Shown here: positions 14,170 to 60,164 of the stretch, piece by piece
Numbering within the stretch: position 1 is the stretch's first letter
Layout: each line of letters starts with the position of its first letter
Assembly: GCF_030053155.1 (NCBI RefSeq)
Contig: NZ_CP125643.1
Span: 248,001-312,000 of the forward strand
Source of the DNA: Rhizobium sp. BT03
GTDB lineage: Bacteria > Pseudomonadota > Alphaproteobacteria > Rhizobiales > Rhizobiaceae
Reading direction: 5' to 3'
DNA: 64,000 nucleotides
Notes under the pieces: generated by a model
The model's database searches: none
The model's input: the letters and a program-made list of their open reading frames with translations, nothing else
Told to the model about the DNA's origin: nothing
Translations under genes and position numbers: made by a program

Positions 14170-15582
14170 ATGACTGCGTATCCTGACCGAAATGGCCTTG
14201 ATGCCGTACACCGTGCCTCCCGCCATGTCGTCATCGTCATCGTCGGCGGCGGTTTCGGCGGCCTGGCCTGTGCCATGGAACTGGGCAACGCCCCAGATAA
14301 TGATGTCACGGTCGTTGACCGCCGCAATCACAACCTCTTCCAGCCGCTGCTGTATCAGGTGGCGACCGCCGCCCTGTCGCCGGCGGACATTGCCGAACCG
14401 ATTCGCAAAACGCTTGCCAGGTTCAAGAACATCAACATGATCATGGCAGAGGTCGTCGGAATTGACCCGCGGTTGCACAAGGTGTCACTTTCTGATGGCG
14501 ACCCGCTTTCCTACGACAAGCTCGTCATCGCCACCGGCTCCGATTACAACTATTTCGGCCATGATGAATGGCGGCAGTTCGCGCCCGGGCTAAAAAGCAT
14601 TCATGAGGCGCGGCATATCCGTCATCGGCTGCTTCTGGCCTTCGAAAAAGCAGAGCGAGCGAAGAGCGAGCCAGAGAAACAGGCATTGCTCACCAGCATT
14701 GTCATCGGCGGTGGACCAACGGGCGTCGAAATGGCCGGCGCCATCTCCGAACTCGGTCGCTTCATGATCAGCCGCGACTTTCGGAACCTCCAGCCCTACA
14801 ATCTGAAAGTGATACTCGTGGAGGCGGGACCACGGATACTCGCCGCCTTTCCCGAACATCTTTCTGCATACGCCAAGTCCTATCTCGAGAATATCGGCGT
14901 CGAGGTCCGCACGGGCAGGCGGGTGATGGATATTCGCGAGGATGGGGCCGAGATCGAAGGTGAGTTCGTCCCCGCCGGATCGATCATATGGGGCGCGGGC
15001 GTCAAGGCGTCCCCCGCCCATTCATGGCTCGGGATACCCGGACTGGCGGGTGGCCGGATCCCTGTCGATGATCATCTTCGTGTCCTGGGGTTCGACGACA
15101 TCTACGCCATTGGAGACACATCTGCGCTCACCGGGGCGGACGGGAAGCTCCTGCCAGGTCTAGCGCAGGTCGCCAAGCAGCAAGGCACATATCTCGGAAA
15201 AAGCCTGCGAATGGGCAAAGCCGTTTCAGGTTTCAAATTCAAGAATCGCGGTAATACGGCGGTGATCGGTCGGAATGCCGCCGTCTTCGACTTTGGAAAA
15301 TGGACGTTGAAAGGCAGGGCGGCCTGGCTGCTTTGGGCGCTTGTCCATGTCTACCTCCTGATCAACTTCGAGAAGCGCCTTCTTGTCGCCATCCAGTGGG
15401 TAGGGCGGTACCTCACGCGGCAACGCGGCGCGCGGATCATCGATGAGACGGCTGAGGGAGCCGATGACGGTCCCGGCGCGGAGCCTCATCACATCGACGA
15501 TAACCACGACGATTGTCACATCGCTGATGTTGATCGGAGTTTACGGCCATCGAACAGAACGCACAGTCGTCGAGGCTATTAG
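14170..15582 (+). CDS. ndh: Type II NADH dehydrogenase (NDH-2)
   Basis: Read from the ATG at 14170 (GGAG seven bases before), the protein has 470 aa. FAD-binding GGGFGGLACAME is near residue 19, and the second, NAD-binding Rossmann motif VIGGGPTGVEMAG is near residue 178. QPLLYQVATAALSP and YAIGDTSA are typical of NDH-2. Hydrophobic segments near residues 380-410 (WLLWALVHVYLLINFE) would attach it to the membrane. It passes electrons from NADH to quinone without pumping protons. The tail after about residue 430 is polar and rich in Asp/His, unlike standard NDH-2. It follows the DUF982/DUF2243 set closely. Confidence 0.92.
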   Translation: MTAYPDRNGLDAVHRASRHVVIVIVGGGFGGLACAMELGNAPDNDVTVVDRRNHNLFQPLLYQVATAALSPADIAEPIRKTLARFKNINMIMAEVVGIDPRLHKVSLSDGDPLSYDKLVIATGSDYNYFGHDEWRQFAPGLKSIHEARHIRHRLLLAFEKAERAKSEPEKQALLTSIVIGGGPTGVEMAGAISELGRFMISRDFRNLQPYNLKVILVEAGPRILAAFPEHLSAYAKSYLENIGVEVRTGRRVMDIREDGAEIEGEFVPAGSIIWGAGVKASPAHSWLGIPGLAGGRIPVDDHLRVLGFDDIYAIGDTSALTGADGKLLPGLAQVAKQQGTYLGKSLRMGKAVSGFKFKNRGNTAVIGRNAAVFDFGKWTLKGRAAWLLWALVHVYLLINFEKRLLVAIQWVGRYLTRQRGARIIDETAEGADDGPGAEPHHIDDNHDDCHIADVDRSLRPSNRTHSRRGY

Positions 15583-15870
15583 CCTCAGAGGTGCCTTGTA
15601 GACTTTACGCTCAATCGTTTCTCACGCCGACAACCTAAGTCCAATTGTCTGCATCACACAGCCTAGAACGTTCACCCATAGCAAGAGTCGAACCAGCCCT
15701 ATCGTCATAACAACCCATCAATAAATGACTATACAGATATCGTGCCGGTTGTATCCACAGACGGACTGCTGCCAATCGAACCTACCCAGCCACGGCTGAG
15801 CCACTGAAGTTCCACAAATACCTCTTACGCCACCGACAGATCAAGCCGCCTGAGTGGCCCTCTCGGATGC

Positions 15871-16344
15871 TTACTTCTGTTCTTCCATCTCTTCATCGAC
15901 AATCGAGCTGACGAGGGCAACGACCCGGCTGCGCACACGCGGGGAAAGGAGCAAAACGTCGTCTATCAGACGCCGTCCCTCCGCCGTGGAAATGTAGGCA
16001 ATCTTCTCATCGATCTCTGTTATGATTTGCTGGCCCTGAGTGGTTTCGGGATCTGGAAGGCCTTCGAAAAACCTCGAAACAGGGATCTTGAGGCAATTGG
16101 CAAGCTCGTAGAGCATCGAAGCGCTGACGCGGTTCTTGCCGCTTTCATATTTTTGTACCTGCTGCAAACTGACCCCGATGCCGGCGCCGAGATCCCCTAG
16201 GGATACATTCGACTGCATTCGGCGGATACGGATTTGCTGTCCGACATGCCGATCAACTGGATGCACCAACTCGCGCGCTAAATTCGACTGTTCGGCTTGC
16301 GCAGGCCTCGAAGTCCGGACCTGTGCTGCTGCATAGCGCTTCAT
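15871..16344 (-). CDS. XRE-family transcriptional regulator
   Basis: With the ATG at 16344 the protein has 157 aa; the frame stays open upstream to 16611 but that part looks non-coding. Residues ~33-90 form a Cro/CI-type HTH: VGQQIRIRRMQ, SLGDLGAGIGVSLQQVQKYE, SGKNRVSASMLYELA and FFEGLP, the usual layout of rhizobial regulators of this class. The C-terminal half is not a known ligand-binding domain. No adjacent target gene is obvious. Confidence 0.85.
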   Translation of the reverse strand: MKRYAAAQVRTSRPAQAEQSNLARELVHPVDRHVGQQIRIRRMQSNVSLGDLGAGIGVSLQQVQKYESGKNRVSASMLYELANCLKIPVSRFFEGLPDPETTQGQQIITEIDEKIAYISTAEGRRLIDDVLLLSPRVRSRVVALVSSIVDEEMEEQK

Positions 16345-45537: not shown

Positions 45538-47982
45538 ATGATTGATAAGAAAGCATTGCTCGATAATATGACCTTGGCGGAGCAGGTCTCGCTACTTTCC
45601 GGCGATACGTTCTGGTCTTTACCGCCCATCGACCGCCTAGGGATAGGGAGATTGCGCTTGACCGACGGCCCCAACGGCGCCCGCGGGGCGGGGTCTTTTG
45701 TCGGAGGTGTGACTGCAGCGGCTTTCCCGGTGGGCATCGCCATCGGAGCGAGTTGGAACCCGGATCTAGCCAAGGAAATCGGCAGTGCCCTAGGTGACGA
45801 GGTTCTTTCAAAAGGTGCCCACGTCTCGTTAGCCCCCACCGTTAACATCCAGCGTAGCGTCACAAACGGCCGCAACTTTGAGTGCTTCTCTGAGGATCCG
45901 ATCCTGACGGCGGAACTTGCAGTCGGCTATATCGAAGGTCTGCAGTCCACGAAAGTCGGTGCCACGATAAAACATTTCGTCGGCAACGAGTCCGAGATTG
46001 AACGTACAACCATCTCTTCAGATATCGATGAACGCACGCTGCGCGAAGTCTACCTGATACCCTTTGAGACGGCGGTGAAGCGGGCAAAGGTCTGGGCCGT
46101 GATGTCTTCGTATAACAAGCTAAACGGTACTTACACGGCGGAAAGCCATTGGCTGTTGAACGAGGTTCTGCGCGGTGACTGGGGTTTTAACGGCGTGGTG
46201 ATGTCGGACTGGTTCGGCTCGCGTTCGACCGCACCCACCGTGAATGCCGGGCTGGATCTGGAGATGCCGGGCCCGACTCGCGATCGCGGCTCCAAGCTAC
46301 TGGCTGCGGTCGAAGGCGGCGAGGTTAGTGTCGAGACGATCCGCGCCTGTGTGCGCAATATCCTGACTTTGATGGAACGCACCGGCGCTATCAACGATCA
46401 TCGCGAGTTTAAGGAGTACGCCATTGATCGACCGAAACATAGGGCATTGATCAGGCGCGCGGGAGCGGAAAGCGCAGTTCTGCTACAGAATGACGGGATC
46501 CTGCCATTGGCTCAGCAAGGTATGGTCGCCATCATTGGACCCAATGCTAAGGTCGCGCAGGTGATGGGAGGCGGCTCGGCGCAGTTGAACCCTCACTATG
46601 TCATCAGTCCGTGGCAGGGGCTGGTGGACGCGCTGGGTGAGGAGAATTTGTGCTACGCTCAGGGTTGCAACAATTATCGGTTTCAGCCGCTAATCGAAAA
46701 CCCCACAACCTTCGAGTTTTTCCAAGGAAGGGAGCTAGCTGGCGAACCGGTGAAGGTCGTCGAGGAACCGTCGAGCCTTGGTGTATGGTTGCCCCCCGTG
46801 GCCGAGGGCTTTGTCGATCCCCTTCGCTTTTCGGCTAGAATGCGCACCATCTTCACAGCCTCGGAAGCCGGCATCTATCGCGTCGGACTAACCTCGGCCG
46901 GGCTTGGCCGGGTCTATGTGGACGGCAGACTTGTGGTGGACGCTTGGGCTTCCTGGATACGTGGTACCACATTCTTTGAAGAAGGCTGCGAAGAGGTCGT
47001 GGGTGAAATCACGCTCGAAGCCGGCCGTACATACGAGGTCGTCGCCGAGTACGCCCGGCACGACCACGTCAACCTCTATATCGCTGCAATTCGGGTAGGA
47101 ATAGGCAGATTTTCGGCCGAAGCGGAGATTGCCGAGGCAGCAGCCGTCGCGGCAAAGGCTGATCATGCGGTAGTCTTCGTGGGCAGAACGGGCGACTGGG
47201 ATACCGAGGGCTCCGATCTTCGCGGTATTGCACTTCCCGGTCTGCAGAACCAGCTTGTTGAGGCGGTAATTGCGGCCAATCCGAACACGATCGTCGTACT
47301 ACAAACCGGTGGACCGGTGGAAATGCCCTGGCTTTCCGGTGCTCGTGCAGTACTGCAATGCTGGTATCCCGGACAGGAGGCTGGCAACGCGATCGCCGAT
47401 GTGCTCCTCGGCAAGGCCGAGCCCTCGGGCCGACTGGCACAGACCTTCCCCGTGCGCTGGGCTGACAACCCCACACATACCGAGGATGACGCGGTCTATC
47501 CAGGTAAGGACGGCCATGTGCGATATGACGAAGGTGTGTTCGTCGGTTATCGGCACTACGACCGCCACGGCATTAAGCCGCTGTTCCCGTTCGGTCATGG
47601 TCTCGGTTATTCAAGCTTTGCGATGTCGGACCTGACGGTAGGGCTACCGGACGCTGCCGGCGCGGTGACAGTGACACTGGAATTGACCAACATCAGCGAG
47701 CGGCCAGGTTCGGCAGTGGTGCAAATCTATGTCGGCGATGTTGAAGCATCTATACCCAGACCGGTTAAAGAGCTGAAAGCCTTCTCGAAAATTGCCCTGG
47801 AACCCGGTGAGAAACGAAGGTTGCGTTTCGTACTTGACGCCCGAACATTTGCCTTCTTCGACACGACCGAGCGGCGTTGGCGGATAGAGGCGGGGGAATT
47901 TGCAGTGATGGCTGGGTTCTCGGCCACCGACATCCGTTTGAGTTTAACTGTCACGCAAAAGGGCGCTGTCTTGGCGCTCTGA
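45538..47982 (+). CDS. Glycoside hydrolase family 3 beta-glucosidase with PA14 domain
   Basis: A complete 814-aa protein without a signal peptide. The GH3 barrel has LTDGPNGARG, APTVNIQRS, GRNFECFSEDP, KHFVGNESE, SSYNKLNG and GVVMSDWFGS, whose Asp is the nucleophile. A PA14 domain (about residues 395-540) is inserted in the second GH3 domain, with GIYRVGLTSAGLGRVYVDG. VFVGRTGDWDTEGSDL and LVEAVIAANPNTIVV follow, then a fibronectin-like end (SERPGSAVVQIYVGD). Domain order and length match Agrobacterium Cbg-1, a plant beta-glucoside hydrolase active on coniferin. It probably releases glucose from plant glucosides taken up by the cell. Confidence 0.93.
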   Translation: MIDKKALLDNMTLAEQVSLLSGDTFWSLPPIDRLGIGRLRLTDGPNGARGAGSFVGGVTAAAFPVGIAIGASWNPDLAKEIGSALGDEVLSKGAHVSLAPTVNIQRSVTNGRNFECFSEDPILTAELAVGYIEGLQSTKVGATIKHFVGNESEIERTTISSDIDERTLREVYLIPFETAVKRAKVWAVMSSYNKLNGTYTAESHWLLNEVLRGDWGFNGVVMSDWFGSRSTAPTVNAGLDLEMPGPTRDRGSKLLAAVEGGEVSVETIRACVRNILTLMERTGAINDHREFKEYAIDRPKHRALIRRAGAESAVLLQNDGILPLAQQGMVAIIGPNAKVAQVMGGGSAQLNPHYVISPWQGLVDALGEENLCYAQGCNNYRFQPLIENPTTFEFFQGRELAGEPVKVVEEPSSLGVWLPPVAEGFVDPLRFSARMRTIFTASEAGIYRVGLTSAGLGRVYVDGRLVVDAWASWIRGTTFFEEGCEEVVGEITLEAGRTYEVVAEYARHDHVNLYIAAIRVGIGRFSAEAEIAEAAAVAAKADHAVVFVGRTGDWDTEGSDLRGIALPGLQNQLVEAVIAANPNTIVVLQTGGPVEMPWLSGARAVLQCWYPGQEAGNAIADVLLGKAEPSGRLAQTFPVRWADNPTHTEDDAVYPGKDGHVRYDEGVFVGYRHYDRHGIKPLFPFGHGLGYSSFAMSDLTVGLPDAAGAVTVTLELTNISERPGSAVVQIYVGDVEASIPRPVKELKAFSKIALEPGEKRRLRFVLDARTFAFFDTTERRWRIEAGEFAVMAGFSATDIRLSLTVTQKGAVLAL

Positions 47983-48479: not shown

Positions 48480-49359
48480 CGCGAGCTTTTGTATCCGTGG
48501 CATCCCTGGTCCGGGCAACCCGTTCACGTGCATGAGGCGGTGTCCAAAGGGACGCATATTTCCGCTGCAGCCTTTCTGGTTCTTCTTCTGGTCGACTTCT
48601 TGAGGTCCCATCGTGGATTTCGACCGATCAGTGAGTGGTCGTTGGCGCAGCCTGGCGGTCCCGCACGTCGATCTCGCAAGCCTGCATTCTTTGGCAAGAT
48701 TGCTGAAGGACGCTGATGCCTCATCGCAATCTTCGGTAATGGGCGCAGCACTTTGGTCGACTCAGCCTATTCAACGCCATGGTGAGGCAGCTACAATGCT
48801 GACTTCCAAGAGAACCTTGAGCCTGCCATCGATGCAAAATAGCTAAAAGAGCCAGCCTGCCCGTCTAACCAACGCGAGCAGAACTCTCGGGACATTGTCA
48901 CCCAACTTGTAGAGGGCCATCTTCGGCGTCAAGGCGCAGACCCTAACCGCTTCCGAGCAGAGAACTACGTAGGGTGCTGGACATATTTGTGAAGAACCCA
49001 ACACGGCACAATACTTTTATCATCACGGAACGGGCGCGGCAGTCGGCCAGCAGCCAGGCGCCTGTAAAATCCAAGTGTCGAGCCGACAGGGCCTTGAAGG
49101 CATGCCTGAAACCAGGATGAGGGAACATATCGCCGGACTGGGCCGAGTTGAAGAACGTTGTGGGCAAGAATCTGTGCCCTCGCCTCATCAGTCCAATTCC
49201 GCCGCTGCCGCCGACAGGTGATCACCTTGATGAAAGTCTGGTGCCGGAAGCCGGGCCAACTTGCTCAACGATCGGCAAAGGCCGGCTTGCCCAAGACAGT
49301 GTTTGTTGCGGAGAGCGCAGAACCCGACGTGAACGTTTCGGCGGCTGCTAGCGTTGGGG
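48480..49359. other. Non-coding mosaic between IS3 and Tn3 remnants
   Basis: About 880 bases with no recognisable gene on either strand. Frames of 60-120 codons lack ribosome sites and family-like sequence. Confidence 0.4.
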
Positions 49360-49935
49360 CGTCAACCGCGGCTTTGGATGAGGAACTATAGGACGCAACC
49401 CCGTAGCTTACGCCAACTGCGTCCGCCACCTCTGCCAGACGGGAGACCACGACACCGGCATGTCCGACCGGACAATCGATTGGCGCCATGCTCGAGCAGG
49501 TTTTCCTGTGGTGCCGGGACCGTTGCATATACGGCCCGTCACACAAGGAACTGGAACGCCTGGTGCGTTCGCAACGGCAGCATTATTTCGATAGCTGGTT
49601 GACCGGGGTGAGCGCTCGCCTTTCAGCAACTACTGTCGCATTGCTGGAAGGGTCTATTGCCGAGGCAGACGGGCAGACCGGCTTCAATACGATGAGCGGT
49701 GATGCTGGCCAGGCATCTCTCGACAACAACCTCAGCATGACGGCGAAACTTGCCTTCATTCAGAAACTTGATCTACCACGGAATATCTTGTCGACGACCG
49801 GCAAGGGCATGGGTGGAACCGATCGTCCGCCGCGTCGCCGGCGAAAAGGCCTGGGAGATGCGGCGGCACGCGCCGGCCAGACAAATCGGCCTCTATGCGA
49901 TTTATCTTTTTCCCTTTCTCCGACGGTAACATAGT
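49360..49935 (+). mobile_element. Tn3-family transposase N-terminal remnant (DUF4158)
   Basis: SHKELERLVRSQRQHYFDSWL, VSARLSATTVALLEGSIAE, MSGDAGQASLDNNLSM and AKLAFIQKLDLPRNIL are the DUF4158 region of a Tn3-type TnpA. After a frameshift near 49810, IVRRVAGEKAWEMRRH and ARQIGLYAIYLFPF continue. The catalytic part is gone. Confidence 0.78.
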
Positions 49936-49980
49936 CGTGGAGCATCTGCTTGACCGACATCCGACATCTTGTGTTGGTAC

Positions 49981-50101
49981 TGTCGGGTCCGCAACATAGG
50001 CTTGTATGGCCAAATCTCATGGTCAACCCTAGTTTAAATAGCTGAAGAGCCGTCAGAATCACTCTTCTAGGCCTCGACCACTAAATTGGCACAAGTTTTG
50101 T
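49981..50101 (+). promoter_or_regulatory. NifA site plus sigma54-like promoter before ectC-like gene
   Basis: A perfect NifA upstream site, TGT-N10-ACA, at 49981-49996. A sigma54 element follows at 50086-50101: TTGGCAC, then TTTTGT 90 bases from the NifA site. The -24 part is perfect; the -12 part has GT instead of GC, so strength is uncertain. The leader to the ectC-like ATG is ~320 bases. Confidence 0.65.
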
Positions 50102-50433
50102 AACAGCCAATTGCGAGTCCGGAGCCGTCCACCGTTGATTCCGCAATCACTAAGGAAAGCAATGCGTCAGACGCTTAAGCAGCTCGCTGAGGGCCGTTAC
50201 AAGACTGGAGGCCATTGAGGCATGCCCGGACGCGGCGCGGGCCTGTTCGAAGCAGTTTAGTAGAAAGGAGATCATCAGAAGCGGCAGTCGCTGCCCGTAA
50301 CTGCATACGCTTTGGGCGATCTCGCCGTATCGGGCTGCCATCGTGAGGCGATTGCGAAATGCTGCCAGATAGGAAGGAATATTTGAACTGGGATTACGGC
50401 AACTTTGAAATCTTCTGACATGAGGAGGACGCG

Positions 50434-50820
50434 ATGTTTGTGCGCAGCCTACTGGACGTCGAAGCTACGGATCACTTCGTGGAGTGGGGCAGCGGTACTA
50501 GCCACCGTCTGCTGACGGAAAAGGACGGCATGGGCTTCACCGTCTGCCATACGGTGGTGAGGGCGAACACCGTGTCGCTGCTTCAATACCGCAACCATCT
50601 CGAGGCTTGCTACTGCATCGCCGGGGAGGGCGAGGTTGAGGACATGGAGGGCAATATCTATCCGGTCCGCCCAGGCGACATCTATGTGCTCGACAAGCAC
50701 GACAAGCACTATTTGCGCGGGGGCGGCGACCGAGACCTGATCCTCGTCAGCATCTTCAACCCGCCGCTCACGGGGATAGAGCGCCACGACCTCAATGACC
50801 AGTCGGGTTCAGCATACTGA
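50434..50820 (+). CDS. Ectoine-synthase-like cupin
   Basis: A complete 128-aa protein after a GAGGAGG ribosome site. [50 protein letters not shown] and [13 protein letters not shown] follow the EctC pattern, including the Glu/His residues around the cupin metal site. EctC closes the ring of N-gamma-acetyl-diaminobutyrate to ectoine. No ectA or ectB is in the window, so it may act on another N-acyl diamine or amino acid. It is the first gene after a NifA/sigma54 promoter. Confidence 0.82.
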
Positions 50821-51003
50821 GTAAGGCGGCCGTAACTCGGACCTCTTTGATGCCATGCCTCATGGCGAACGTGTCCTAGACAGAACGCAATCTGGGACAT
50901 TATCGAAGTTGCTAGCCGACTATCCCGAACGTCGCGATCAGTGATATTGCGCGGCGTCCGCAAACAAGTACTTGCAAGATGCCGCGCTTTGACTTCGTTG
51001 TTT

Positions 51004-51021
51004 GAGGAGATATATCTCCTC
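51004..51021. promoter_or_regulatory. 18-bp perfect palindrome
   Basis: GAGGAGATATATCTCCTC lies 253 bp before the dehydrogenase start in a 450-base gap. It could be an operator for the downstream gene. No sigma54 element was found in the gap. Confidence 0.4.
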
Positions 51022-51273
51022 GAGTGCAACTTTGGGGATTGGCAAAAAATAGCATATTCCGGGCTATGATCAGTGGGCACGGCATGAATGTCATCGACTT
51101 GCTATCTTTGCTTTGCAACTCCAAAATATCAGGGAGCCTCATGTCGTGAACTTGGAAGAGACACCCGCTTCAGGTGCCGCCACTTTTGATAAATCTTTAA
51201 ACGGCGCTGGTGACAATCTTGATATGAACTACGTCCGCGATCGCAGAAGGTGGATAGTTGCAAGGGAACTGAT

Positions 51274-52395
51274 ATGAAGGATGTAGTGGTCATTGGCGCA
51301 GGCAAGATTGGCGGCGCTATCGCTTTGATGTTGGCTGCGACGAACGACTACACCGTCGTGGTAACAGATCGCGATCAGGCGCAGCTAGATAAGCTCGACA
51401 AGCATACTGCGATTTCGAGTAAGGTAGTCGACATCACCGACAAGACTGAGCTCGTAAAGTTGCTGAAGGGAAAATTCGCCGTTTTGTCCGCGGCGCCATT
51501 CAACCTGACCGGCAAAGTGGCCGAGGCCGCATTGGAAGCTTCCGTTCACTACCTCGATCTCACGGAAGATGTCGCAACGACAAAGAAGGTCGAAGAGCTT
51601 TCCAAGTGCGCCAACGTTTCTTTCATTCCTCAGTGCGGTCTTGCTCCCGGTTTCATCTCGATTGTTGCCAATGACCTCGCAAAGCGTTTCGACACGCTGG
51701 ATAGCGTTCGGATGCGCGCCGGCGCACTGCCGCAATACCCGTCCAACGCTCTCAACTACAATCTCACCTGGAGCACGGATGGTCTGATCAACGAATACAT
51801 TGAACCGTGCGAAGCTATTGTAGAGGGCAAATTCGTCACGGTCCCTGCACTGGAGGAACGGGAAGAATTCTCCTTGGATGGCATCACCTATGAGGCCTTT
51901 AACACATCCGGCGGTCTGGGCACCCTGGCCAAGACGCTCGAAGGCCGCGTCCGCAATATGAACTATCGGACAATCCGATATCCCGGTCACCAGGCGATCA
52001 TCAAGGCTCTGCTGAATGACCTCAATCTGAAGAATCGCCGAGACCTGCTGAAAGACGTCTTCGAGAACGCTCTGCCTGCTACGATGCAAGACGTTGTGGT
52101 CATCTTCGTCACCGTCTGCGGATGGAAAGACGGTCGCTATTTGCAGGAGACCTATGCCAACAAGGTTTACTCTGGCGTGGTGGCGGGTAAAGCGATGAGC
52201 TCCATTCAGATCACGACCGCCGCCGGCATCACAACGGTTCTTGACCTTCTGGCCGACGGAAAGCTGCCTCAGAATGGCGTCGTTCGGCAAGAAGAGGTCG
52301 CACTGCCCGACTTCCTGAACAACCGGTTTGGCCGGGCCTATGACCCGGAGGCCCTGCGCTTGAAGCTGGACCTAGAGGTCCTGCCGATGGACTAG
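51274..52395 (+). CDS. Saccharopine-dehydrogenase-like oxidoreductase
   Basis: From the ATG at 51274 (AAGGGA eight bases before) the protein has 373 aa; a GTG at 51250 is in frame. VVVIGAGKIGGAIALML is the NAD(P) loop; VLSAAPFNLTGKVAEAAL and YLDLTEDVATTKK are typical of saccharopine dehydrogenase and carboxynorspermidine synthase. CGLAPGFISIVANDL and WSTDGLINEYIEP follow. Such enzymes join an amino acid to a keto acid or aldehyde by reductive amination. It could build an opine-like or polyamine-like bond in the product of this cluster. Confidence 0.82.
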   Translation: MKDVVVIGAGKIGGAIALMLAATNDYTVVVTDRDQAQLDKLDKHTAISSKVVDITDKTELVKLLKGKFAVLSAAPFNLTGKVAEAALEASVHYLDLTEDVATTKKVEELSKCANVSFIPQCGLAPGFISIVANDLAKRFDTLDSVRMRAGALPQYPSNALNYNLTWSTDGLINEYIEPCEAIVEGKFVTVPALEEREEFSLDGITYEAFNTSGGLGTLAKTLEGRVRNMNYRTIRYPGHQAIIKALLNDLNLKNRRDLLKDVFENALPATMQDVVVIFVTVCGWKDGRYLQETYANKVYSGVVAGKAMSSIQITTAAGITTVLDLLADGKLPQNGVVRQEEVALPDFLNNRFGRAYDPEALRLKLDLEVLPMD

Positions 52396-52654
52396 GTGAA
52401 CTTTAACGGCCCTTGTCACCGGTGACGGTCGACTGCCGGCTGTAGTTGTGATGGCTTAAGACACGTGTTTACGACTCGTTTGCGAGGTGTCTTAGGCGAG
52501 GCTCGCGATGCGCGTGGAATTCTTGGTCACGAACGGCGGCGTCGATGGGGTGATGCACAGAAGCTCGACATTTCATGTCGGTTGGGATTTCTGAAACTCC
52601 GTAACCATCCGGCTAGGGTGTTGTAGGGTTGTAGGGACTTCGGTGGCTGCCAAT

Positions 52655-52757
52655 TTCAGGGGAGCAATTGTTCGAGCCTGCTGATCGAGGTGTCGGGTGC
52701 GAGCGAGCACATCGGCGAGCCACGCTTGTGGATCGAGGTCATTGAGCTTGGCGCTGC
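52655..52757 (-). mobile_element. IS66 TnpC C-terminal remnant, second copy
   Basis: The minus strand reads SAKLNDLDPQAWLADVLAR, the well-conserved end of IS66 TnpC, then degenerates. About 35 residues remain. It abuts the recombinase fragments. Confidence 0.65.
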
Positions 52758-53118
52758 TGCGTCACGACGTCGGAACAGCGATCGTCGCTTATAATCCGGC
52801 ATGGGCGGCCCGCTTCGGCGTGTCGACGCCGTTTTCTTGCGAACACTTGCGCCGCACGTGGGATTTGCCTCCGGCTGCGCCATCACAATGATCGCGAAGC
52901 AGGCGCTCGAACTGGCAGGCATTGACGGCTATGCGCACCAAGGTGCTCACCTCTTTCGCCACAGCCTCGCGACCGACCTTTTGCGGTCGGGCGCCAGCTT
53001 TGCCGAGATCGGCCAACTGCTCGGCCATCGAAGCATCGACAGTACAAGAATCTATGCCAAGCTCGATATTGAGAAGCTGCGTGAACTGAGCCTACCCTGG
53101 CCGGGAGGTGTCCAATGA
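52757..53118 (+). pseudogene. Tyrosine recombinase C-terminal fragment
   Basis: After a frameshift near 52830, DAVFLRTLAPHVGFASG, GAHLFRHSLATDLLRSG (His-x-x-Arg), IGQLLGHRSIDSTRIYAKL (His and nucleophile Tyr) form the catalytic end of a phage-type integrase. The stop overlaps the next recombinase start (ATGA). Adjacent overlapping tyrosine recombinase genes are a mark of RIT (recombinase in trio) elements. Confidence 0.75.
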
Positions 53119-53844
53119 GCCGGCTTCGCACCGCGTTTGAGCGCTACATCGGCATGCGCCAAGGGCTGGGATACAAATATGACGGTCCGGCAAAACGATT
53201 GTCGGAGTTCGTCGCTTTCATGGAAGCCTGCGGCGCCGAGACCATCAAGAATGATCTGGCAATGGAGTGGGTCACCTCGATGGACCGGCAGCCGAGTTGG
53301 TCAATCCGACTGGCTGATGTGCGCTGCTTTGCCCAGCACCTGACTCATTTCGATCCTTTGACGGAAGTGTCACCGAGCGACGCTGTGGCGCCGACACGGC
53401 GGACAAAACCCTACATCTATAGTGAGGTCGAGATTCAGGCACTTCTGGCGGCAGCACTGTCGTTGCCGCCGGCCAACGCCCTCCGGCGCTGGACATATCA
53501 CTGCCTGTTCGGGCTGATAGCAGTGGCCGGACTGCGCCATTCCGAAGCGCTCAGCCTGCTCCGGGCCGATGTCGATCTCGACCAGGGCGTCCTCACCATC
53601 CGAGAGACAAAGTTTGGCAAGTCACGGCTGGTGCCGCTGCATGCCAGTTGCTGCAGGCGGGCGTCGACTGCTCGGTCATTGCCCTGTGGTTGGGCACGAA
53701 GCGATGGAAACGACGCTGACCTATCTTCATGCGCATCTCGTACTGAAGGGATCTGCACTCGCAGAGCTGAAGCCGTACGAACGCGCCAAGGCCGAGCGAT
53801 TTCGACCAAGCGACCGGCTTCTCGAATTCCTGAACGCCCTCTGA
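53115..53844 (+). pseudogene. Second tyrosine recombinase, internal deletion and frameshift
   Basis: MSRLRTAFERYIGMRQGLGYKY begins a SAM-like N-terminal domain. LFGLIAVAGLRHSEALSLLRAD includes the first catalytic Arg. After KSRLVPLHAS the sequence jumps to CQLLQAGVDCSVIALWLG, so about 90 residues with the His-x-x-Arg motif are deleted. A further single-base loss precedes HEAMETTLTYLHAHL (nucleophile Tyr). The end PSDRLLEFLNAL is typical. Confidence 0.75.
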
Positions 53845-54235
53845 GCATGAGGACTATGCCAAGCGCCAAACAACGGCGACCCGCCGAACCGGCCGGGAAC
53901 GCACGGTTTGATGCAAACAAGAGAAGAGGCGCTCGGCATAGTTCGACGGTCGGCATAAACCGCAAAGCTGAACGGCGGCGATCCAGAGGCTTACCTAGGA
54001 GACGGCCTCACTCGCATCGCCGATCACTCCATCAACCGGATCGATGAACTTCTGCCGTGGAGGCTCCAACTTCCCCGCGGAGGGCTTGACCGGACGCTTA
54101 CTGTCATCGGAGTTGGTTGCGCCACCGACGGAAACCGGGAAGGAAGACGGAGGTCAACTTCGCCCTCTTGGAGGCGAGGACAAACTGGGCCGAAACGCTG
54201 AGACTACAGCACCCCGACACACCTTCCGTCGACTT

Positions 54236-54356
54236 TGTGCAATTGATGACACGGCGGTGTTCAGCCCCGCGTCCTGCCGTACTCTCATCGAAGCCATTCA
54301 ATAAAAAGCAGACATTTCGTGGTGGCTCTTTTTGGCCCAGTTGGCACGCCTGTTGC
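54236..54356 (+). promoter_or_regulatory. NifA site plus sigma54 promoter before ddl-like gene
   Basis: TGT-N10-ACA at 54236-54251. TTGGCAC-N4-GTTGC at 54341-54356 is a full -24/-12 match with GG and GC ten bases apart. The NifA site ends 90 bases before the TGGCAC element. The leader to the ddl-like ATG is ~270 bases. Confidence 0.78.
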
Positions 54357-54635
54357 TGCAATCGATGCAAGTTGCGTGCAGCTGCCAACCGGACTTTAGG
54401 TCTGGGCGACAGTGTGAGCGACGAGCCGAGGAGAAAAGCACGAAGTCAGGGTAGCATCGTCATTCAAACCGAGAAACGCGCTGTTTCACTTGTAGGCCCT
54501 CACGCCCAGCCCAGAGCCATTGAAGGGACGGCGTCCGGGTCTGGAGCGATGTGTACGAAAAGGTACGTCGAGTTGTTCGACGATGCCGCCCAGGCGGGTA
54601 ATCAGAACGAGTTCGCCAGCAAGGAGGACGACAAA

Positions 54636-55628
54636 ATGCATGACGCGAAACTGCTATCGGCCGCACGAGAAGTTCTATCCCCGTTGCGGCTAGTTCTTCT
54701 TGCTGGAGGATCATCAACTGAGCGCGCAGCATCTCTTGAAACTAAAGATGTACTATTGCCGCACCTCCAGAACCTTTGCCGTTCAGTTGAATTTGTTGAG
54801 CCGAACGATGTAGAGCAATTGCTCCGCGCCGTCCTCCAATGCGACTTCGTGCTCAGTGTGGTCTATGGCGCAGGAGGCGAAGATGGTACGATGCAGGGGT
54901 TCCTTGACATCCTGCGCGTTCCCTACTCCGGGCCATCAACGCTGCCCTCCGCAATTGGAATGAACAAAGACATCTTTGTCTCATTGCTTCGAGATTGGGG
55001 CTATCCAGTCCCGCGAGGCCGTTTAGTAGCAGCCCTGGGAGACCCTCGCTCCTGGCCGCTCGAACTACAGCAGTCGCAGGTACTGGTCCTTAAACCGATT
55101 GGCGAGGGGTCCAGTATTGGAATCAAGATGCTGGATGGCCATGCTGCAGCCGCGGAGGCGATTGCCCGAATCGAACCTACTGATTGCTCCAGGTGGCGCC
55201 TTGAAGAATTCATCGAAGGGCCATCTGGCACCGTCGGTATCTTTCAAGTGGGATCAGAGCTTATCATCGGAGATGTCGTGTTATTCGACCTTCCAATCGG
55301 CTGGCGCTTCTACGATGACCGGCTGAAGCAGAGGTCGGTCGATGAGCATGCTATACCCAAGATACTCCAAGGACCGGCGGCAGAACGTATCCGCGATGAT
55401 GTCCTCAGGCTTTATAAACAGCTGGACTGTAAGGGGCTTGTACGCTTCGACTTTATCTATAATGACGGCGCCCCCGTCTACCTCGAGGTTAACACCATCC
55501 CAGGACTGCTCCCTGAAAGCAATGCGCCGCTCTCGTTCCAATCACGGTTCTCATTCGAAGATCTCATCACACTAAGCACTGCTGCGCAGATACCCGGGCA
55601 GCTGATGATCTCTACTAAGGTTGTGTGA
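54636..55628 (+). CDS. D-alanine-D-alanine-ligase-like ATP-grasp enzyme
   Basis: AAGGAGG lies eight bases before the ATG at 54636; the frame stays open far upstream across the promoter, and an ATG at 54549 is a weaker choice. The 330-aa protein follows Ddl order: VLLAGGSSTERAASLETKDV, VLSVVYGAGGEDGTMQGFLD, PYSGPSTLPSAIGMNKDIF, VLKPIGEGSSIGI (ATP lid region), FIEGPSGTVGIF and VRFDFIYNDGAPVYLEVNTIPGL (metal-binding Asp/Glu/Asn). Usual Ddl has HGxxGEDG where this has YGAGGEDG, so substrate choice may differ. Ddl enzymes join two D-amino acids. With a housekeeping ddl expected on the chromosome, a biosynthetic role here is likely. Confidence 0.82.
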   Translation: MHDAKLLSAAREVLSPLRLVLLAGGSSTERAASLETKDVLLPHLQNLCRSVEFVEPNDVEQLLRAVLQCDFVLSVVYGAGGEDGTMQGFLDILRVPYSGPSTLPSAIGMNKDIFVSLLRDWGYPVPRGRLVAALGDPRSWPLELQQSQVLVLKPIGEGSSIGIKMLDGHAAAAEAIARIEPTDCSRWRLEEFIEGPSGTVGIFQVGSELIIGDVVLFDLPIGWRFYDDRLKQRSVDEHAIPKILQGPAAERIRDDVLRLYKQLDCKGLVRFDFIYNDGAPVYLEVNTIPGLLPESNAPLSFQSRFSFEDLITLSTAAQIPGQLMISTKVV

Positions 55629-55659
55629 CGTAGGCTAGTGTCGTGAGGAGGTGCGTAAT

Positions 55660-55890
55660 GAATGGAAACGTCTCCGGCCCGCGCATTTGACGCCGGAGCA
55701 GATGGAGGAGTGCTGTCTGACAGCCGCGGCTGCGTTACGCTAGGGGCGGCTTCCCCAGACTGACATCGCCCGATAGATCGGCGTCAACTGCGCGAGTGTC
55801 TGTCATTAGGGGCGCTACGCTGGCGCGCCGGCGCCGATTGGCTGCCAAGACACGGGACGGCCGCGGCTTGAGTACCAAGCCTGAGGCCGG
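55660..55890 (+). mobile_element. IS630-type transposase N-terminal remnant
   Basis: One plus frame with in-frame stops reads HLTPEQMEECCLTAAAALR, GRLPQTDIAR, IGVNCASVCH and GCQDTGRPRL, the HTH part of an IS630-like transposase. It lies between the ddl-like and dapF-like genes. Confidence 0.55.
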
Positions 55891-56139
55891 CTAGGCAGCC
55901 TCCTGGCTAAGGGGTGACGGCTGGCTCTGCCACCGAGTGTTAGACGCGTAAGTGCCATTGCGGGGCTGGTAGAGGGGACCTTGGAGTGCACTAACATCGG
56001 CGCAATCTGGAGCGCTGCTTGAAACGCTCAAGGGCTCAGCATGGTCCTGCCACACGAGCCAAGGAGCGGGTGAATCGCAGCCTAGCGTAACACGATTGGA
56101 TTGCTTTGAGTTGAACACTTTATCTAGCTGGACAGAACA

Positions 56140-57033
56140 ATGAGACACATCAACTTTCTCTCATGCCCTCCACCAGTTGACTTGCCCGGGCAGTGGCCAT
56201 TTATCAAGATGCACGGCTTACACAACTATTTTGTGATCGTAGATCGGCGCGACGGGTCGAAGTCTTTCGATCGTGAGGACATCGTCCGCATCTGCGATTG
56301 CCACACCGGTCCGGGAGGCGAGCAACTGCTCACCATCGAACCGGCCTCGGACAAGGGGCGCAACGTCGGTGCCTACGCGGCGATGAGAATCTTTAACATA
56401 GACGGCAAGGAAGTCGGTGCATGCGGCAATGCCACGCGCTGCATTGCGTATCTTCTTCTCGAGGAGACCGGCGAGGACGAGGTGCAGATTGAAACGAAAG
56501 CAGGTGTCCTTCACTGTCGAAGAGCAGGGCCAATGCAAATCAGCGTCACGTTTGGGCCAATCAGCATGGACTGGCGCAGGATTCCCCTGTCCAGAGAGGT
56601 AGATACGCTTCACTTGCCAGTACAAAGCGGACCACTGAAGGACGGCCTCGCGCTCGATATAGGCAACCCGCACGCTGTCTTCTTCGTCGATTGCCTCGAA
56701 CTCTTTGACATGGCTCACCATGCGCCGGTGGTGCAGAACGACCCCCTCTTTCCCGAGGGCATTAATGTGGACGCCGCCGAGGTTCTGGACGGGCGGACAC
56801 TGCGGCTCGCCGTCTGGGAGCGTCCGGGCATATTGACCAAGGCATGCGGAACCGGCGCATGCGTCGCCGCCTATGCGGCACTGAAACGAGGCCTCGTCAC
56901 TTCCACCAGAATTGCGGTCCACCTTCCGGCCGGATTGCTGAAAATCGAGATCGCAAACGGAGACATGGCTGTCATGACCGGGCCTGTCGCGTTCTGCTGT
57001 CATGGCTTTATAGAAGGAGGCAAGAAGTCGTAG
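56140..57033 (+). CDS. Diaminopimelate-epimerase-like (DapF) racemase
   Basis: A complete 297-aa protein. Both catalytic cysteines are present: Cys95 in GACGNATRC and Cys236 in KACGTGACV, used for two-base proton exchange. IGNPHAVFF and EGINVDAAEV are conserved. Two substrate-side motifs differ from standard DapF: KMHGLGNDF is KMHGLHNYF, and ERGxGET before the second Cys is ERPGILTK. This suggests a substrate other than diaminopimelate, as in the histidine racemase CntK of metallophore clusters. It follows the ddl-like gene after an IS630 remnant; no own sigma54 element was found. Confidence 0.85.
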   Translation: MRHINFLSCPPPVDLPGQWPFIKMHGLHNYFVIVDRRDGSKSFDREDIVRICDCHTGPGGEQLLTIEPASDKGRNVGAYAAMRIFNIDGKEVGACGNATRCIAYLLLEETGEDEVQIETKAGVLHCRRAGPMQISVTFGPISMDWRRIPLSREVDTLHLPVQSGPLKDGLALDIGNPHAVFFVDCLELFDMAHHAPVVQNDPLFPEGINVDAAEVLDGRTLRLAVWERPGILTKACGTGACVAAYAALKRGLVTSTRIAVHLPAGLLKIEIANGDMAVMTGPVAFCCHGFIEGGKKS

Positions 57034-57352
57034 GCTAACGTCAGTTAGCTCTTGCGAGGTTGCGCGGGTTGAGGGGCTGAGTGAGCCAGGCAAGTGGATC
57101 GACGTTGTTCATCTTCCCCATTTATGCCGACCGTCGACCTATCCCGAGCACCTCTTCCCACATTGACCTTGCCACCAAGTTTTATCCAGCTTTGAGTTCG
57201 CTCCAGCGGTTTGAGTTGCTGCGACGTACATCACAGCGCAAGACTCGTTCCACCCTCGTTCTTCCTTTGGCTGACCAATCTCTGACGGATATATCGCGGA
57301 CGAGCGTAACCCCGCAGACTCAGCAATTTTCTCACGTCCAAAGAAATGCCGT

Positions 57353-57467
57353 TGTCGGATATATGACATTGACGATAGTCAGCCATCGTCCCTTTCTCCC
57401 TCATCTGAGCACTGAACATTAATGATAGAAAGTGCCCCGATGTTTGTGCGGCTGGCACAACTCTTGC
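57353..57467 (+). promoter_or_regulatory. NifA site plus sigma54 promoter before ATP-grasp gene
   Basis: TGT-N10-ACA at 57353-57368 and CTGGCAC-N4-CTTGC at 57452-57467, with GG and GC exactly ten bases apart. The NifA site ends 84 bases before the TGGCAC. The predicted start is only ~20 bases before the gene's ATG-type start region. Confidence 0.8.
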
Positions 57468-57499
57468 TGGTGTGAATTGAAGAGCGGGAGCCGACGAGA

Positions 57500-58729
57500 G
57501 TGCCGAGAGTGACGAGAAGAGCGCTAGTTTTTATCGAAGGTAATACCGCCGGTACCGGACAACTTTATGTCCGGGCCGCGCAGGATCTTGGGCTCCATCC
57601 AATAGTCCTGGCAGCTCCGCCCGTCCAATACGACTATCTTAAGGAAAAATGTATCGAGGCAATCGTAGTTGATACGAAAGATCTTGATGCGCTTATCCGC
57701 GAATGTTCCCGCCTCCGTTCAACGTATGACGTAGCTGGGATCACCTGCGCCAGAGAGGCATTCTATGCGACTAGTGGCAAACTCTGTCGGCATTTTGGGC
57801 TACCAGGCCCCAATCCGGAGGCGGTAGAAAGATGCTGCAACAAATTCACGCAACGTCAGCTCCTTAAGGAAGGAGGCGTTTCCGTACCGTCATATTTTCT
57901 AGCAGTGAATACTACCGAAGTTATATCCGCCGCTGCAGAGATTGGCTTCCCTGTAGTTGTTAAGCCAGTCGTAGGTGTTGGTAGTGCCGGTGTACGACTC
58001 TGCTGCAATGTCGATGAGCTGTGTGAGCAGACGAGCCATTTGCTGAACAGCACTGACGTGCGAAATTTCTCGTCAGGCATACTGATTGAAGAATTGGCGC
58101 GAGGCCCACATTTTTCGGTTGAAACAATGGGGACTGACGTTATAGGGGTCTGTGCCGCTGATTTCGGCCCACCGCCGCACTTCGTGTATCGTCATTTCGC
58201 ATTTCCGGCCCCGCTGAATGAATACGAGTACCAGCGTATCGTCGACGTTGCACAGAGTTCTTTGCGAGCTCTCGGTCTTGAATGGGGACCGGCCAATATC
58301 GAACTCCGGTGGACGAGTCGTGGACCCGTCGTTATAGAAGTCAATCCGCGCCTTGCTGGAACGCCGGACCCACAATTGATTCTCTTAGCATACGGTATCG
58401 ACCTCATCACCGAGCACATCAAGCTTGCTATCGGCGAGGAGTCGACGTTGCACAGGAGACGTTCGCACACTGCGGCCGCCCGAATACTAGTTCCTGACCG
58501 CGACGGCACACTAACGTGGTCTGATAGCGAGAGCCGGTTGGCCGTTTTACCAGGTGTCGCCGAGGTCAAATTGTATCTAGCTACGAACACGCCGATCATT
58601 AGGAAAGGAGATGCCCGAGACTGGATCGGGCACGTCATAGCGGTTTCACCGAGCCTAGCCCAGTGCGAGGCGATCCTTCAGAATGCCGTCGATCAAATCG
58701 ATTGGACAATAACTCCATTTCCGACGTAA
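57500..58729 (+). CDS. ATP-grasp amino-acid ligase
   Basis: A 409-aa protein from a GTG start, with GGGAG ahead. The N-terminal part (ALVFIEGNTAGTGQLYVRAA) is a Rossmann-like domain. The ATP-grasp fold has KFTQRQLLKEGGVSVPSY, FPVVVKPVVGVGSAGVRLC (ATP-binding Lys), ILIEELARGPHFSVETMG and NIELRWTSRGPVVIEVNPRLAGTPDP (metal-binding Glu/Asn and Arg). Order and length fit carboxylate-amine ligases such as BacD-type L-amino-acid ligases. It would form an amide or peptide bond in the product. It has its own NifA/sigma54 promoter. Confidence 0.85.
   Translation: MPRVTRRALVFIEGNTAGTGQLYVRAAQDLGLHPIVLAAPPVQYDYLKEKCIEAIVVDTKDLDALIRECSRLRSTYDVAGITCAREAFYATSGKLCRHFGLPGPNPEAVERCCNKFTQRQLLKEGGVSVPSYFLAVNTTEVISAAAEIGFPVVVKPVVGVGSAGVRLCCNVDELCEQTSHLLNSTDVRNFSSGILIEELARGPHFSVETMGTDVIGVCAADFGPPPHFVYRHFAFPAPLNEYEYQRIVDVAQSSLRALGLEWGPANIELRWTSRGPVVIEVNPRLAGTPDPQLILLAYGIDLITEHIKLAIGEESTLHRRRSHTAAARILVPDRDGTLTWSDSESRLAVLPGVAEVKLYLATNTPIIRKGDARDWIGHVIAVSPSLAQCEAILQNAVDQIDWTITPFPT
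58183..58269 (+). repeat. Segment duplicated downstream (inside ATP-grasp gene)
   Basis: This 87-base coding segment is repeated, with about ten differences, at 58811-58897 beyond the gene's end. Confidence 0.75.
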
Positions 58730-58810
58730 ACGCCTATTTCTGCCCACATCGCCAGGCCTTTGATCTTCGGTTCCAGCTAGAGGCATTTGTGAGCCGCGTT
58801 CCCGCCGTAT

Positions 58811-58897
58811 CGTGTTTCGTCAATTCGCATTTCCGGCCCCGCTGAACGAATACGAGTACCGGCGTATGGCCGACGTTGCACAGATTTCTTTGCGAGC
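58811..58897 (+). repeat. Partial copy of ATP-grasp gene segment
   Basis: 87 bases matching 58183-58269 (for example TTTCCGGCCCCGCTGAA and CGACGTTGCACAGA). It is non-coding here. It shows that a second, now mostly deleted, ATP-grasp gene copy once followed the first. Confidence 0.75.
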
Positions 58898-59283
58898 GAT
58901 CTCACCATCAGTGAAGCAAAAGTAGAGAAAACCCGGACAACCGGCTGATAATTTACGATCGTTTGACGAAACAGCGCGCGCGCATCTTGCAAATACTGCT
59001 CATATGCCTGCAGTTGTTGTTCTGCTTCGATTGTGATCGACCTCAATCTCTTCGGCAACGCCAGTTGATCAGGGTCTGGACGGCGAAACGGGTGACGGAG
59101 ATCATCAATCCGTGGAGCGTCGCGATTGCCCTCCTGCCGTAATCCGATTGCCGGGATAGTCACCAGAACACGCGGTGCGGCAGCAATTTGCCGACCGATT
59201 CGGCGACGAAGTAATAGGCACTGCGCGGCGTACTAGGCCCTGTTGACAAAGTCTGTGACTGAGGTGAACCTCTCGCAATGTAG
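58898..59283. other. Non-coding stretch after ATP-grasp duplication
   Basis: About 390 bases. A minus frame to 59163 has protein-like parts (LRSITIEAEQQLQAYEQYLQ) but no family or ribosome site. GGCCCTGTTGACAAAGTC near 59235 resembles an IS end, without a partner. Confidence 0.35.
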
Positions 59284-59526
59284 TTTCGCAACATCATTGA
59301 GCCTTACGTTGAGGGGCAGGCATACCGGTGCCCGTGCTGCCATTTCGCGACCCTTTCAGAGCGAGGCGGCTACGAGATTCGCCCTGTGTGTTTTTGGGAA
59401 GATGATGGGCAAGACGATCATGATGCTGAGTTGGTCCGAGGCGGTCCGAACGGCCCGCTGTCGCTGGTCCAAGCGCGACTGAATTTCGCAGAATCCGGCG
59501 CTTGCAACCTTCCACCATCGCAATAA
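59284..59526 (+). pseudogene. CPCC-type cysteine-rich protein lacking a start
   Basis: The frame reads AYRCPCCHFATLSERGGYEI, PVCFWEDDGQDDHDAEL, VRGGPNGPLSLVQARLNF to a stop at 59524. This is the CPCC domain, a small zinc-ribbon-like module often found in toxin-immunity and phage-like regions. A TAG just before (59281) and no ATG/GTG/TTG in frame mean the 5' end is lost. Confidence 0.7.
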
Positions 59527-59629
59527 TATACGTCCGCCTACCGAAGCTGAACGCTAACGATCCCCAAATGAGCTGAACTCTGATTCAAAGCTGCTCTTTG
59601 CTACCAGGAGGACGCGTCTACCCACCAGA

Positions 59630-59758
59630 TCAGAAAAGCTCATGCGCGCGTGCAAGTCCGGTCGCAATTGCAAGCTCCTCGAGGCTGTAGCCTCTGGAGA
59701 TACGAGCAGCCCTGCGGCTTGCTGCCGGGGTCGTATCTGACATGACAATCTGATCCAT
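59630..59758 (-). CDS. Short HTH-like peptide, probably truncated
   Basis: A 42-aa frame, MDQIVMSDTTPAASRRAARI then SRGYSLEELAIATGLA. The second part resembles the first helices of small rhizobial HTH proteins. The end looks frameshifted. Confidence 0.3.
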   Translation of the reverse strand: MDQIVMSDTTPAASRRAARISRGYSLEELAIATGLARAHELF

Positions 59759-59849
59759 GTTCTTTATCTCCAATTTTGCGTGCAAGAAATGTCCTAAGAG
59801 GCATTGAGTTCCTAGTGCCGCGAGCTAGTCCGCAGGCGCCCTCTTGCTC

Positions 59850-60164
59850 TTCTCCTCGCGTAGTCGCGACATCCTCAGACCTTCCGTCAGCGGCGCGCTT
59901 GAGTATGCCATCTTCACTACTGAGGAGAAGGGCAGGGTCGTCGACTGGCCGCCCGGTTGTGAGCAGGCGATATTCGGCCGGGTGCTGGACGAGATGCCGG
60001 GAAGGCCGCTGCCATTAAGCTGGGCACCCGAAGATTGGGCCGCAGGGGTTATGGAAGCGAGCTTTCATGTTCGCCGCAACCGCAGCAGACCTCACCGGAT
60101 CTCTCGTCTTGTTCATGTTCCGAAGCCGCATGAGGTGACCGTTCTCGACTGTGGCGTCCTTTGA
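59850..60164 (+). pseudogene. PAS-domain sensor fragment
   Basis: SGALEYAIFTTEEKGRVVDW, GCEQAIFGRVLDEMPGRPL and PEDWAAGVME match the first part of a PAS domain in rhizobial histidine kinases (similar order to the kinase at 62629-63645). No kinase domain follows. Confidence 0.55.

Follow-up and report, generated by a model that had tools for sequence, protein, structure and literature searches.

Why should a nitrogen-fixing rhizobium keep, besides its housekeeping enzymes, extra Ddl- and DapF-like enzymes of amino-acid chemistry behind promoters of the type read by NifA, a regulator that is mostly seen as the switch of nitrogenase? The question is raised by a locus of the bean-nodulating Rhizobium sp. 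BT03 (genome 6.9 Mb) in a stretch of 64,000 nucleotides (bases 248001-312000 of contig C4, NZ_CP125643.1), which is called here the window; the contig also carries three nifH genes. Five open frames encode an EctC-like cupin, a saccharopine-dehydrogenase-like enzyme, a Ddl-fold ligase (Ddl1), a DapF-like epimerase and an L-amino-acid-ligase-type ATP-grasp enzyme (Table 1), as an earlier note on this DNA had proposed and as open reading frame (ORF) and profile searches confirmed. We consider it somewhat better than an even chance (about 0.55) that the locus holds a NifA/sigma54-switched accessory module with which bacteroids, while fixing nitrogen, would make a small peptide or amino-acid conjugate. 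The solid part of the case is the conservation of predicted NifA/sigma54 signals before the ligase genes.

NifA/sigma54 signals in the window

The upstream activator site (UAS) of NifA has the consensus TGT-N10-ACA, and promoters used by sigma54 have a -24/-12 consensus. The three NifA plus sigma54 signals reported in the earlier note are borne out: each of the EctC, Ddl and ATP-grasp genes is preceded by a -24/-12 box with a TGT-N10-ACA site lying 100-106 bp upstream of it. In 300 first-order Markov simulations the mean was 0.057 such pairs per simulated window and the maximum 1, whereas the real window has four; with GC strictly required at -12, the simulated mean was 0.02 and the maximum 1 (200 windows) versus 3 observed. 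By themselves, TGT-N10-ACA (10 versus 7.5 expected) and the -24/-12 pattern (28 versus 24.5 expected) are not enriched in the window, and the promoter signal resides in the pairing of the two motifs, in neither motif by itself. The box of the EctC gene deviates at -12, as does that of M. loti nifH, TGGCACGAGTTTTGAA (PMC3538637). In the window, the dehydrogenase and DapF genes have no NifA/sigma54 site of their own. The fourth pair shares the palindromic NifA site at 57353; its -24/-12-like box, at 57252 of the minus strand, is weaker and would read antisense towards DapF.

Table 1. Genes, predicted promoter elements and gene remnants of the locus (positions in the window)
Feature	Position	Strand	Evidence and remarks
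NifA UAS (TGT-N10-ACA) for EctC	49981..49996	+	motif scan
sigma54 -24/-12 box TGGCACAAGTTTTGTA, C to T at -12	50087..50102	+	UAS 106 bp upstream; EctC 347 bp downstream
EctC-like cupin, 128 aa	50434..50820	+	PF06339 127.5 bits (cut-off 27); NF009806 162.7 (cut-off 128)
Remnant, C-terminal part of another Ddl/ATP-grasp ligase gene	50940..51125	+	38-40% over 58-73 residues; between EctC and dehydrogenase
Saccharopine-dehydrogenase/lysine-dehydrogenase-like, no NifA site	51274..52395	+	PF03435, PF16653; ATG 51274, in-frame GTG 51250
NifA UAS for the Ddl-like gene	54236..54251	+	motif scan
sigma54 -24/-12 box TGGCACGCCTGTTGCT, zero mismatches	54342..54357	+	UAS 106 bp upstream; ATG 54636 294 bp downstream
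Ddl1, Ddl-fold ligase without Tyr216 equivalent, 330 aa	54636..55628	+	profile, alignment, fold comparison
DapF-like epimerase, distinct clade, 297 aa	56140..57033	+	TIGR00652 198.2 (cut-off 114.65); both catalytic Cys kept
NifA UAS for the ATP-grasp gene	57353..57368	+	motif scan
sigma54 -24/-12 box TGGCACAACTCTTGCT, zero mismatches	57453..57468	+	UAS 100 bp upstream; GTG 57500 47 bp downstream
L-amino-acid-ligase-type ATP-grasp enzyme, 409 aa	57500..58729	+	PF13535 57.6 (cut-off 27); PF18603 LAL_C2 41.4 (cut-off 29.4)
Duplicated, diverged ATP-grasp gene fragment (residues 229-259)	58812..58904	+	74% identity; directly downstream of the intact copy

Conservation of the signals in other rhizobia

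For comparison between loci a uniform rule was used, by which a pair must lie within 700 bp of a gene with at least 400 bp of upstream sequence available; repeat loci (window copies, copies in genome G029, repeated matches) and matches below the identity limits or without N-terminus were dropped, and it should be noted that the loci counted are related and so not independent. By this rule, pairs precede 4 of 6 Ddl1 genes, 2 of 2 glyA genes and 5 of 11 genes for Ddl2, a second group of Ddl-fold ligases, compared with 7/79 for the ATP-grasp gene, 4/27 for EctC, 0/9 for DapF, 0/6 for the dehydrogenase and 11/612 for background ORFs (a twelfth background match, the ATP-grasp gene of the window's lineage, was removed, and two of the 11, L060 and L090, lead into Ddl2). 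For Ddl1 this means a pair in all six distinct upstream regions, four directly and two through glyA, and in all five lineages examined. For Ddl2, a pair was found in 9 of 13 loci when the upstream range was widened to 1,100 bp, with another ORF between or overlapping pair and Ddl2 in L060, L079 and L090. The 13 loci stand for 15 rows (L045 = L057, L121 = L129), the count becomes 8/12 if L127 and L128, which have equal scores and promoter, are merged, and L100 has just 333 bp upstream. The Ddl2 gene of NGR234 has a perfect -24/-12 box and no canonical NifA site. The window's own genome carries a Ddl2 on contig C7 (L130, 3563-4573), preceded at a distance of 194 bp by a site pair of its own. Near this C7 gene lies a frame that, judged from its sequence, is phosphopantetheinyl-transferase-like (L130, 6656-7363). 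Mesorhizobium muleiense (L090) shows the order NifA/sigma54 pair, condensation-domain fragment (14484-15221), Ddl2 (15306-16307).

The ligases so marked are rare. Among the 7,996 candidates sharing most words with Ddl1, which were the ones scored, 13 relatives have at least 73% identity, the named ones being from Rhizobium, Mesorhizobium and one Microvirga; nodulation is known in Aminobacter and Microvirga. A protein search of the order's genomes (n = 397) found Ddl1 in 2 and Ddl2 in 3, all within the window's own family, in which Ddl1 is present in 2 of 247 genomes. These searches of order and family show the rarity of both ligases.

The Ddl-fold ligase

The ORF of Ddl1 mechanically opens at 54117; its likely start was placed at the ATG given in Table 1, because AAGGAGG stands a few bases before it and the matches of relatives begin there. 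The protein passes the Pfam cut-offs for the N- and C-domains (PF07478, 63.2 with a cut-off of 24; PF01820, 41.3 with a cut-off of 34.6) and stays under those of NCBIfam (PRK01372, 155.9 versus 243; TIGR01205, 147.3 versus 245.65). Compared with Ddl of solved structure (PDB 8evy, 1iov, 1ehi), Ddl1 keeps the whole fold and the ATP-grasp catalytic motifs. It differs from them in its NCBIfam scores, in being NifA/sigma54-marked and in having no equivalent of Tyr216, which we take to be an active-site residue of the second D-Ala subsite. A Tyr216 equivalent is present in 0/18 members of the Ddl1 clade versus 8/8 ordinary Ddl in alignment A1, which holds the window Ddl and 25 of 34 matches (omitted were P0001 from R. 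altiplani, P0012-P0015, in which the N-terminus is missing, P0023, P0025, P0031 and P0033).

The earlier note had held that none of the enzymes is needed twice for housekeeping. This agrees with the rest of the genome: because there are a chromosomal DapF, two chromosomal Ddl on contig C1 and a second EctC, also on C1 (80% identity), the plasmid copies are extras. The motif-based comparison with housekeeping enzymes rests on two Ddl, since the pattern did not pick up L121, one of three further Ddl; nor did the motif retrieve the genome's own DapF.

The DapF-like epimerase and the ATP-grasp enzyme

Motifs CGN and ACGTGAC of the DapF-like protein hold its catalytic cysteines. Like diaminopimelate (DAP) epimerase it has both of these and also the residues that presumably bind the distal end of DAP; it differs by clade-specific motifs, e.g., CGNATRC and ERPGILTK. 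The ATP-grasp enzyme has both the ATP-grasp core and the LAL_C2 domain above the Pfam cut-offs, as expected of a member of the L-amino-acid ligases such as BL00235 (3vot) and BacD. It differs from these in scoring just 71 bits with the nearest solved member and in having close relatives in rhizobial contigs only (59 loci, in the scan).

A Ddl and a DapF together bring to mind remodelling of the bacteroid cell wall, in which extra NifA-driven copies would give more, or altered, peptidoglycan precursors (DAP, D-Ala-D-X) during differentiation. We regard this as unlikely. Both are peptidoglycan enzymes by family, DapF keeps the catalytic cysteines and DAP-binding residues, and lysA adjoins dapF in AK83 and in Rhizobium sp. 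007. Cell-wall remodelling does not fit, however, with the loss of the Tyr216 equivalent throughout the Ddl1 clade, nor with the presence of L-amino-acid-ligase and EctC genes, which have no known wall role. Moreover, the alanine racemase of locus L004 is unmatched in the window (mur genes were not sought), and sister strains obtained from nodules carry broken copies of the genes.

Two known routes with a DapF-like enzyme were considered and not adopted. D-cycloserine-like biosynthesis combines a DapF-like racemase with an ATP-grasp enzyme and a Ddl; the O-ureido-serine racemase (7vdy) is 16th of 17 matches, with 93 bits versus 143 for the best DapF (other Dcs-like genes were not sought). Synthesis of a staphylopine-type metallophore, which uses a DapF-like enzyme and an opine dehydrogenase, does not agree with a dehydrogenase that is related to saccharopine/lysine dehydrogenases and is not part of the conserved unit.

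The EctC-like cupin and the dehydrogenase

Like ectoine synthase, the cupin is above the family cut-offs and retains in the alignment what we take to be the metal ligands and the catalytic Tyr; unlike it, the cupin does not retain the Trp that presumably lines the template pocket. Ectoine synthesis was ruled out, because no EctA is above the cut-off in the genome (best match 21.9 bits versus a cut-off of 120.6).

The dehydrogenase is preceded by a small frame (51146-51277, 43 codons from GTG) whose stop overlaps its start (ATATGA), an overlap that suggests translational coupling. Its nearest relatives (89-92%) sit in clusters of the lysine-catabolism type, and a NifA/sigma54 pair precedes none of the six copies. 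For these two reasons the enzyme is most likely a passenger that strayed from a lysine-catabolism cluster and stands outside the module. The relationship could also mean that the set serves uptake and breakdown of lysine- or DAP-type nodule or wall compounds and is centred on DapF and the dehydrogenase. Indeed, the closest relatives of the dehydrogenase cluster with aldehyde dehydrogenase, aminotransferase and VOC enzymes, and one DapF relative has as neighbours lysA, an ABC transporter and a desuccinylase-like gene. We consider such a catabolic role very improbable: proteins from those clusters (lysA, desuccinylase-like, aldehyde dehydrogenase, aminotransferase and transporter binding protein) find no match in the window, ATP-consuming ligases are ill-suited to catabolism, and the dehydrogenase is without a NifA site.

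Which genes travel together

That the five genes form one conserved pathway, as had been suggested, had to be rejected. Among the loci examined, all five are found together only in R. ecuadorense and in the bean plasmids of the window's lineage, where they are broken. In R. altiplani, Ddl, DapF and ATP-grasp keep order and promoters with 97-98% identity, and neither EctC nor the dehydrogenase was found in the 6.2 kb of contig upstream of them. R. sullae has the order glyA-Ddl-dapF downstream of a NifA/sigma54 pair. In S. meliloti AK83 this arrangement recurs, though dapF, immediately behind Ddl, is decayed; further along come an ATP-grasp gene that has a pair of its own, lysA, another dapF and an ornithine-cyclodeaminase-like gene. 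In Mesorhizobium sp. 131-2-5, alanine racemase comes after Ddl, which has its pair. Thus Ddl1 adjoins a racemase or epimerase in 5/5 lineages. EctC is elsewhere partnered with ATP-grasp (twice in AK83, in L6-AK89 and in S. medicae ml18), and a separate pair precedes it in R. gallicum M101 (L011; 343 bp before the gene) and, in R. mayense, a broken copy. The core that the comparison brings out consists of Ddl with DapF, and of ATP-grasp; EctC is separately promoted. A few kb from EctC in R. gallicum M101, a NifA/sigma54 pair (21117, minus strand) stands before a condensation-domain/polyketide cluster (L011, 19564-20892).

Selection and breakage in sister plasmids

Region 49000-60000 of the window is 100% covered, with at least 99% identity, in eight bean-type plasmid records (R. 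etli CIAT 652, R. esperanzae and Rhizobium sp. N strains) and 54% covered, again with at least 99% identity, in three others (R. phaseoli and two Rhizobium sp.). Match coordinates indicate that in 11/11 of these sister plasmids an interruption or deletion affects one or more of the core genes, at three different places. In seven, the ATP-grasp gene is interrupted after codon 56 (the insert in the one inspected is an IS66 element); in one, Ddl is split near codon 186; and in three, Ddl extends only to codon 109 and near-identical DapF and ATP-grasp genes are missing. The cluster is being lost in the bean-plasmid lineage. Bean is listed as source in 10 of the 11 records, and because sister strains with broken genes come from bean nodules, the intact cluster is not needed for bean nodulation.

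An alternative reading is that the island is a relic, once functional and now drifting in bean plasmids, and that the window copy is simply not yet broken. The breakage and the two ligase remnants listed in Table 1 are what a relic would leave. On the other side, the window and R. ecuadorense have all five frames open; in R. altiplani, Ddl, DapF and ATP-grasp are open as well, with ratios of non-synonymous to synonymous change (dN/dS) of 0.22, 0.13 and 0.30, respectively, on 15 to 27 changes per gene; and both perfect promoters are conserved there. We therefore hold a relic to be rather improbable. The claim that selection has kept the frames open stands insofar as these ratios, based on few changes, go, and fails for the sister plasmids. 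Likewise, of the statement that nearly everything around the genes is decayed, which was checked in part, integrase pieces between the genes speak for it and a GH3 gene nearby (45538-47982), which is intact, speaks against it. This gene encodes a beta-glucosidase with PA14 and Fn3-like domains.

Expression data from other rhizobia

NifA-dependence of the kind proposed here has been demonstrated for a symbiotic-plasmid Ddl of Paraburkholderia phymatum, Bphy_7633, which changed by -8.45 log2 in nodules of a nifA mutant (PMC8305402), where it is mentioned once, in a table, and by -3.7 in rpoN nodules (PMC5979394). With it fell, in nifA nodules, a neighbouring MATE exporter (-8.21), Bphy_7636 (-5.92) and an SDR (-7.21), and nifV changed by -8.28 log2 (Table 1 of PMC8305402). 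A NifA/sigma54 pair lies 468 bp upstream of Bphy_7633 (L112). Since the protein shares only 25% identity with Ddl1 and 24% with Ddl2, it is an independent case. Like Ddl1 it is an extra Ddl, is NifA/sigma54-marked and has no Tyr after the loop Lys (it has His); unlike Ddl1 it has as neighbours the MATE exporter and an AMP-binding protein. The latter is the record's annotation of Bphy_7636 (4,335 bp), and it speaks for peptide chemistry more than for the making of cell wall.

These neighbours, including the SDR, tell against cell-wall remodelling. In its favour, PMC5979394 reports for P. phymatum rpoN nodules falls in the ddl Bphy_2671, mur genes, D-Ala-D-Ala and diaminopimelate (-3.2 log2). 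For M. loti, the abstract of PMC3538637 states that the genes regulated by NifA2 outside nif/fix are for the most part strongly expressed in nodules, yet fixation does not require them, which may serve as a precedent for dispensable NifA-driven metabolism.

Proposed function and meaning

The accessory module could operate as follows. At low oxygen, NifA would very probably bind at 49981, 54236 and 57353, and the sigma54 promoters at 50087, 54342 and 57453 would fire, a step for which the motif pairs argue strongly. The DapF-like epimerase would supply a D-configured, DAP-like amino acid, and Ddl1 would activate a D-amino acid with ATP and couple it to some partner that is not D-alanine. A second amide bond would be formed by the L-amino-acid-ligase-type enzyme, and the EctC-like cupin may cyclise a diamino-acid unit. 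More speculatively, the compound might act outside nitrogenase as a rhizopine-like nutrient or signal, and it would be dispensable for nodulation. Our best inference is that it is a peptide-like bacteroid compound. Rhizopine synthesis (mos) is similar in being confined to nodules, under NifA-type control and dispensable; its chemistry is different, and no moc-like catabolic partner was identified at the window cluster. In the open-licence literature we found no described system of this kind.

Several observations weigh against this proposal. As the DAP-binding residues are kept, the DapF-like protein may simply be a DAP epimerase. Some Ddl2 copies (that on C7 and that of NGR234) retain the Tyr. 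The ATP-grasp gene is without a pair in 72 of 79 distinct upstream regions, so that its enrichment is modest, and of the just four EctC genes with a pair two belong to the window's own lineage. The five genes include no exporter, and the breakage in all sister plasmids counts here, too. Finally, a symbiotic-plasmid ATP-grasp gene of P. phymatum, Bphy_7724, which may or may not be related to the window enzyme, is up by +2.26 in nifA nodules (PMC8305402).

A wider generalization is offered tentatively, as something possible rather than probable: rhizobia may repeatedly and independently have put Ddl-fold ligases (at least Ddl1, Ddl2 and the P. phymatum Ddl, some with altered active sites) under NifA, and the result may be D-amino-acid peptides made only in bacteroids ("peptide rhizopines"), diversified by strain with an ATP-grasp family restricted to rhizobia. 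If in several lineages of alpha-rhizobia and one of beta-rhizobia NifA indeed drives peptide-forming ligases as well, nodules would hold a class of compounds that we did not find described in the open-licence literature, and this would bear on how bacteroids influence host, kin and competitors beyond the supply of ammonia.

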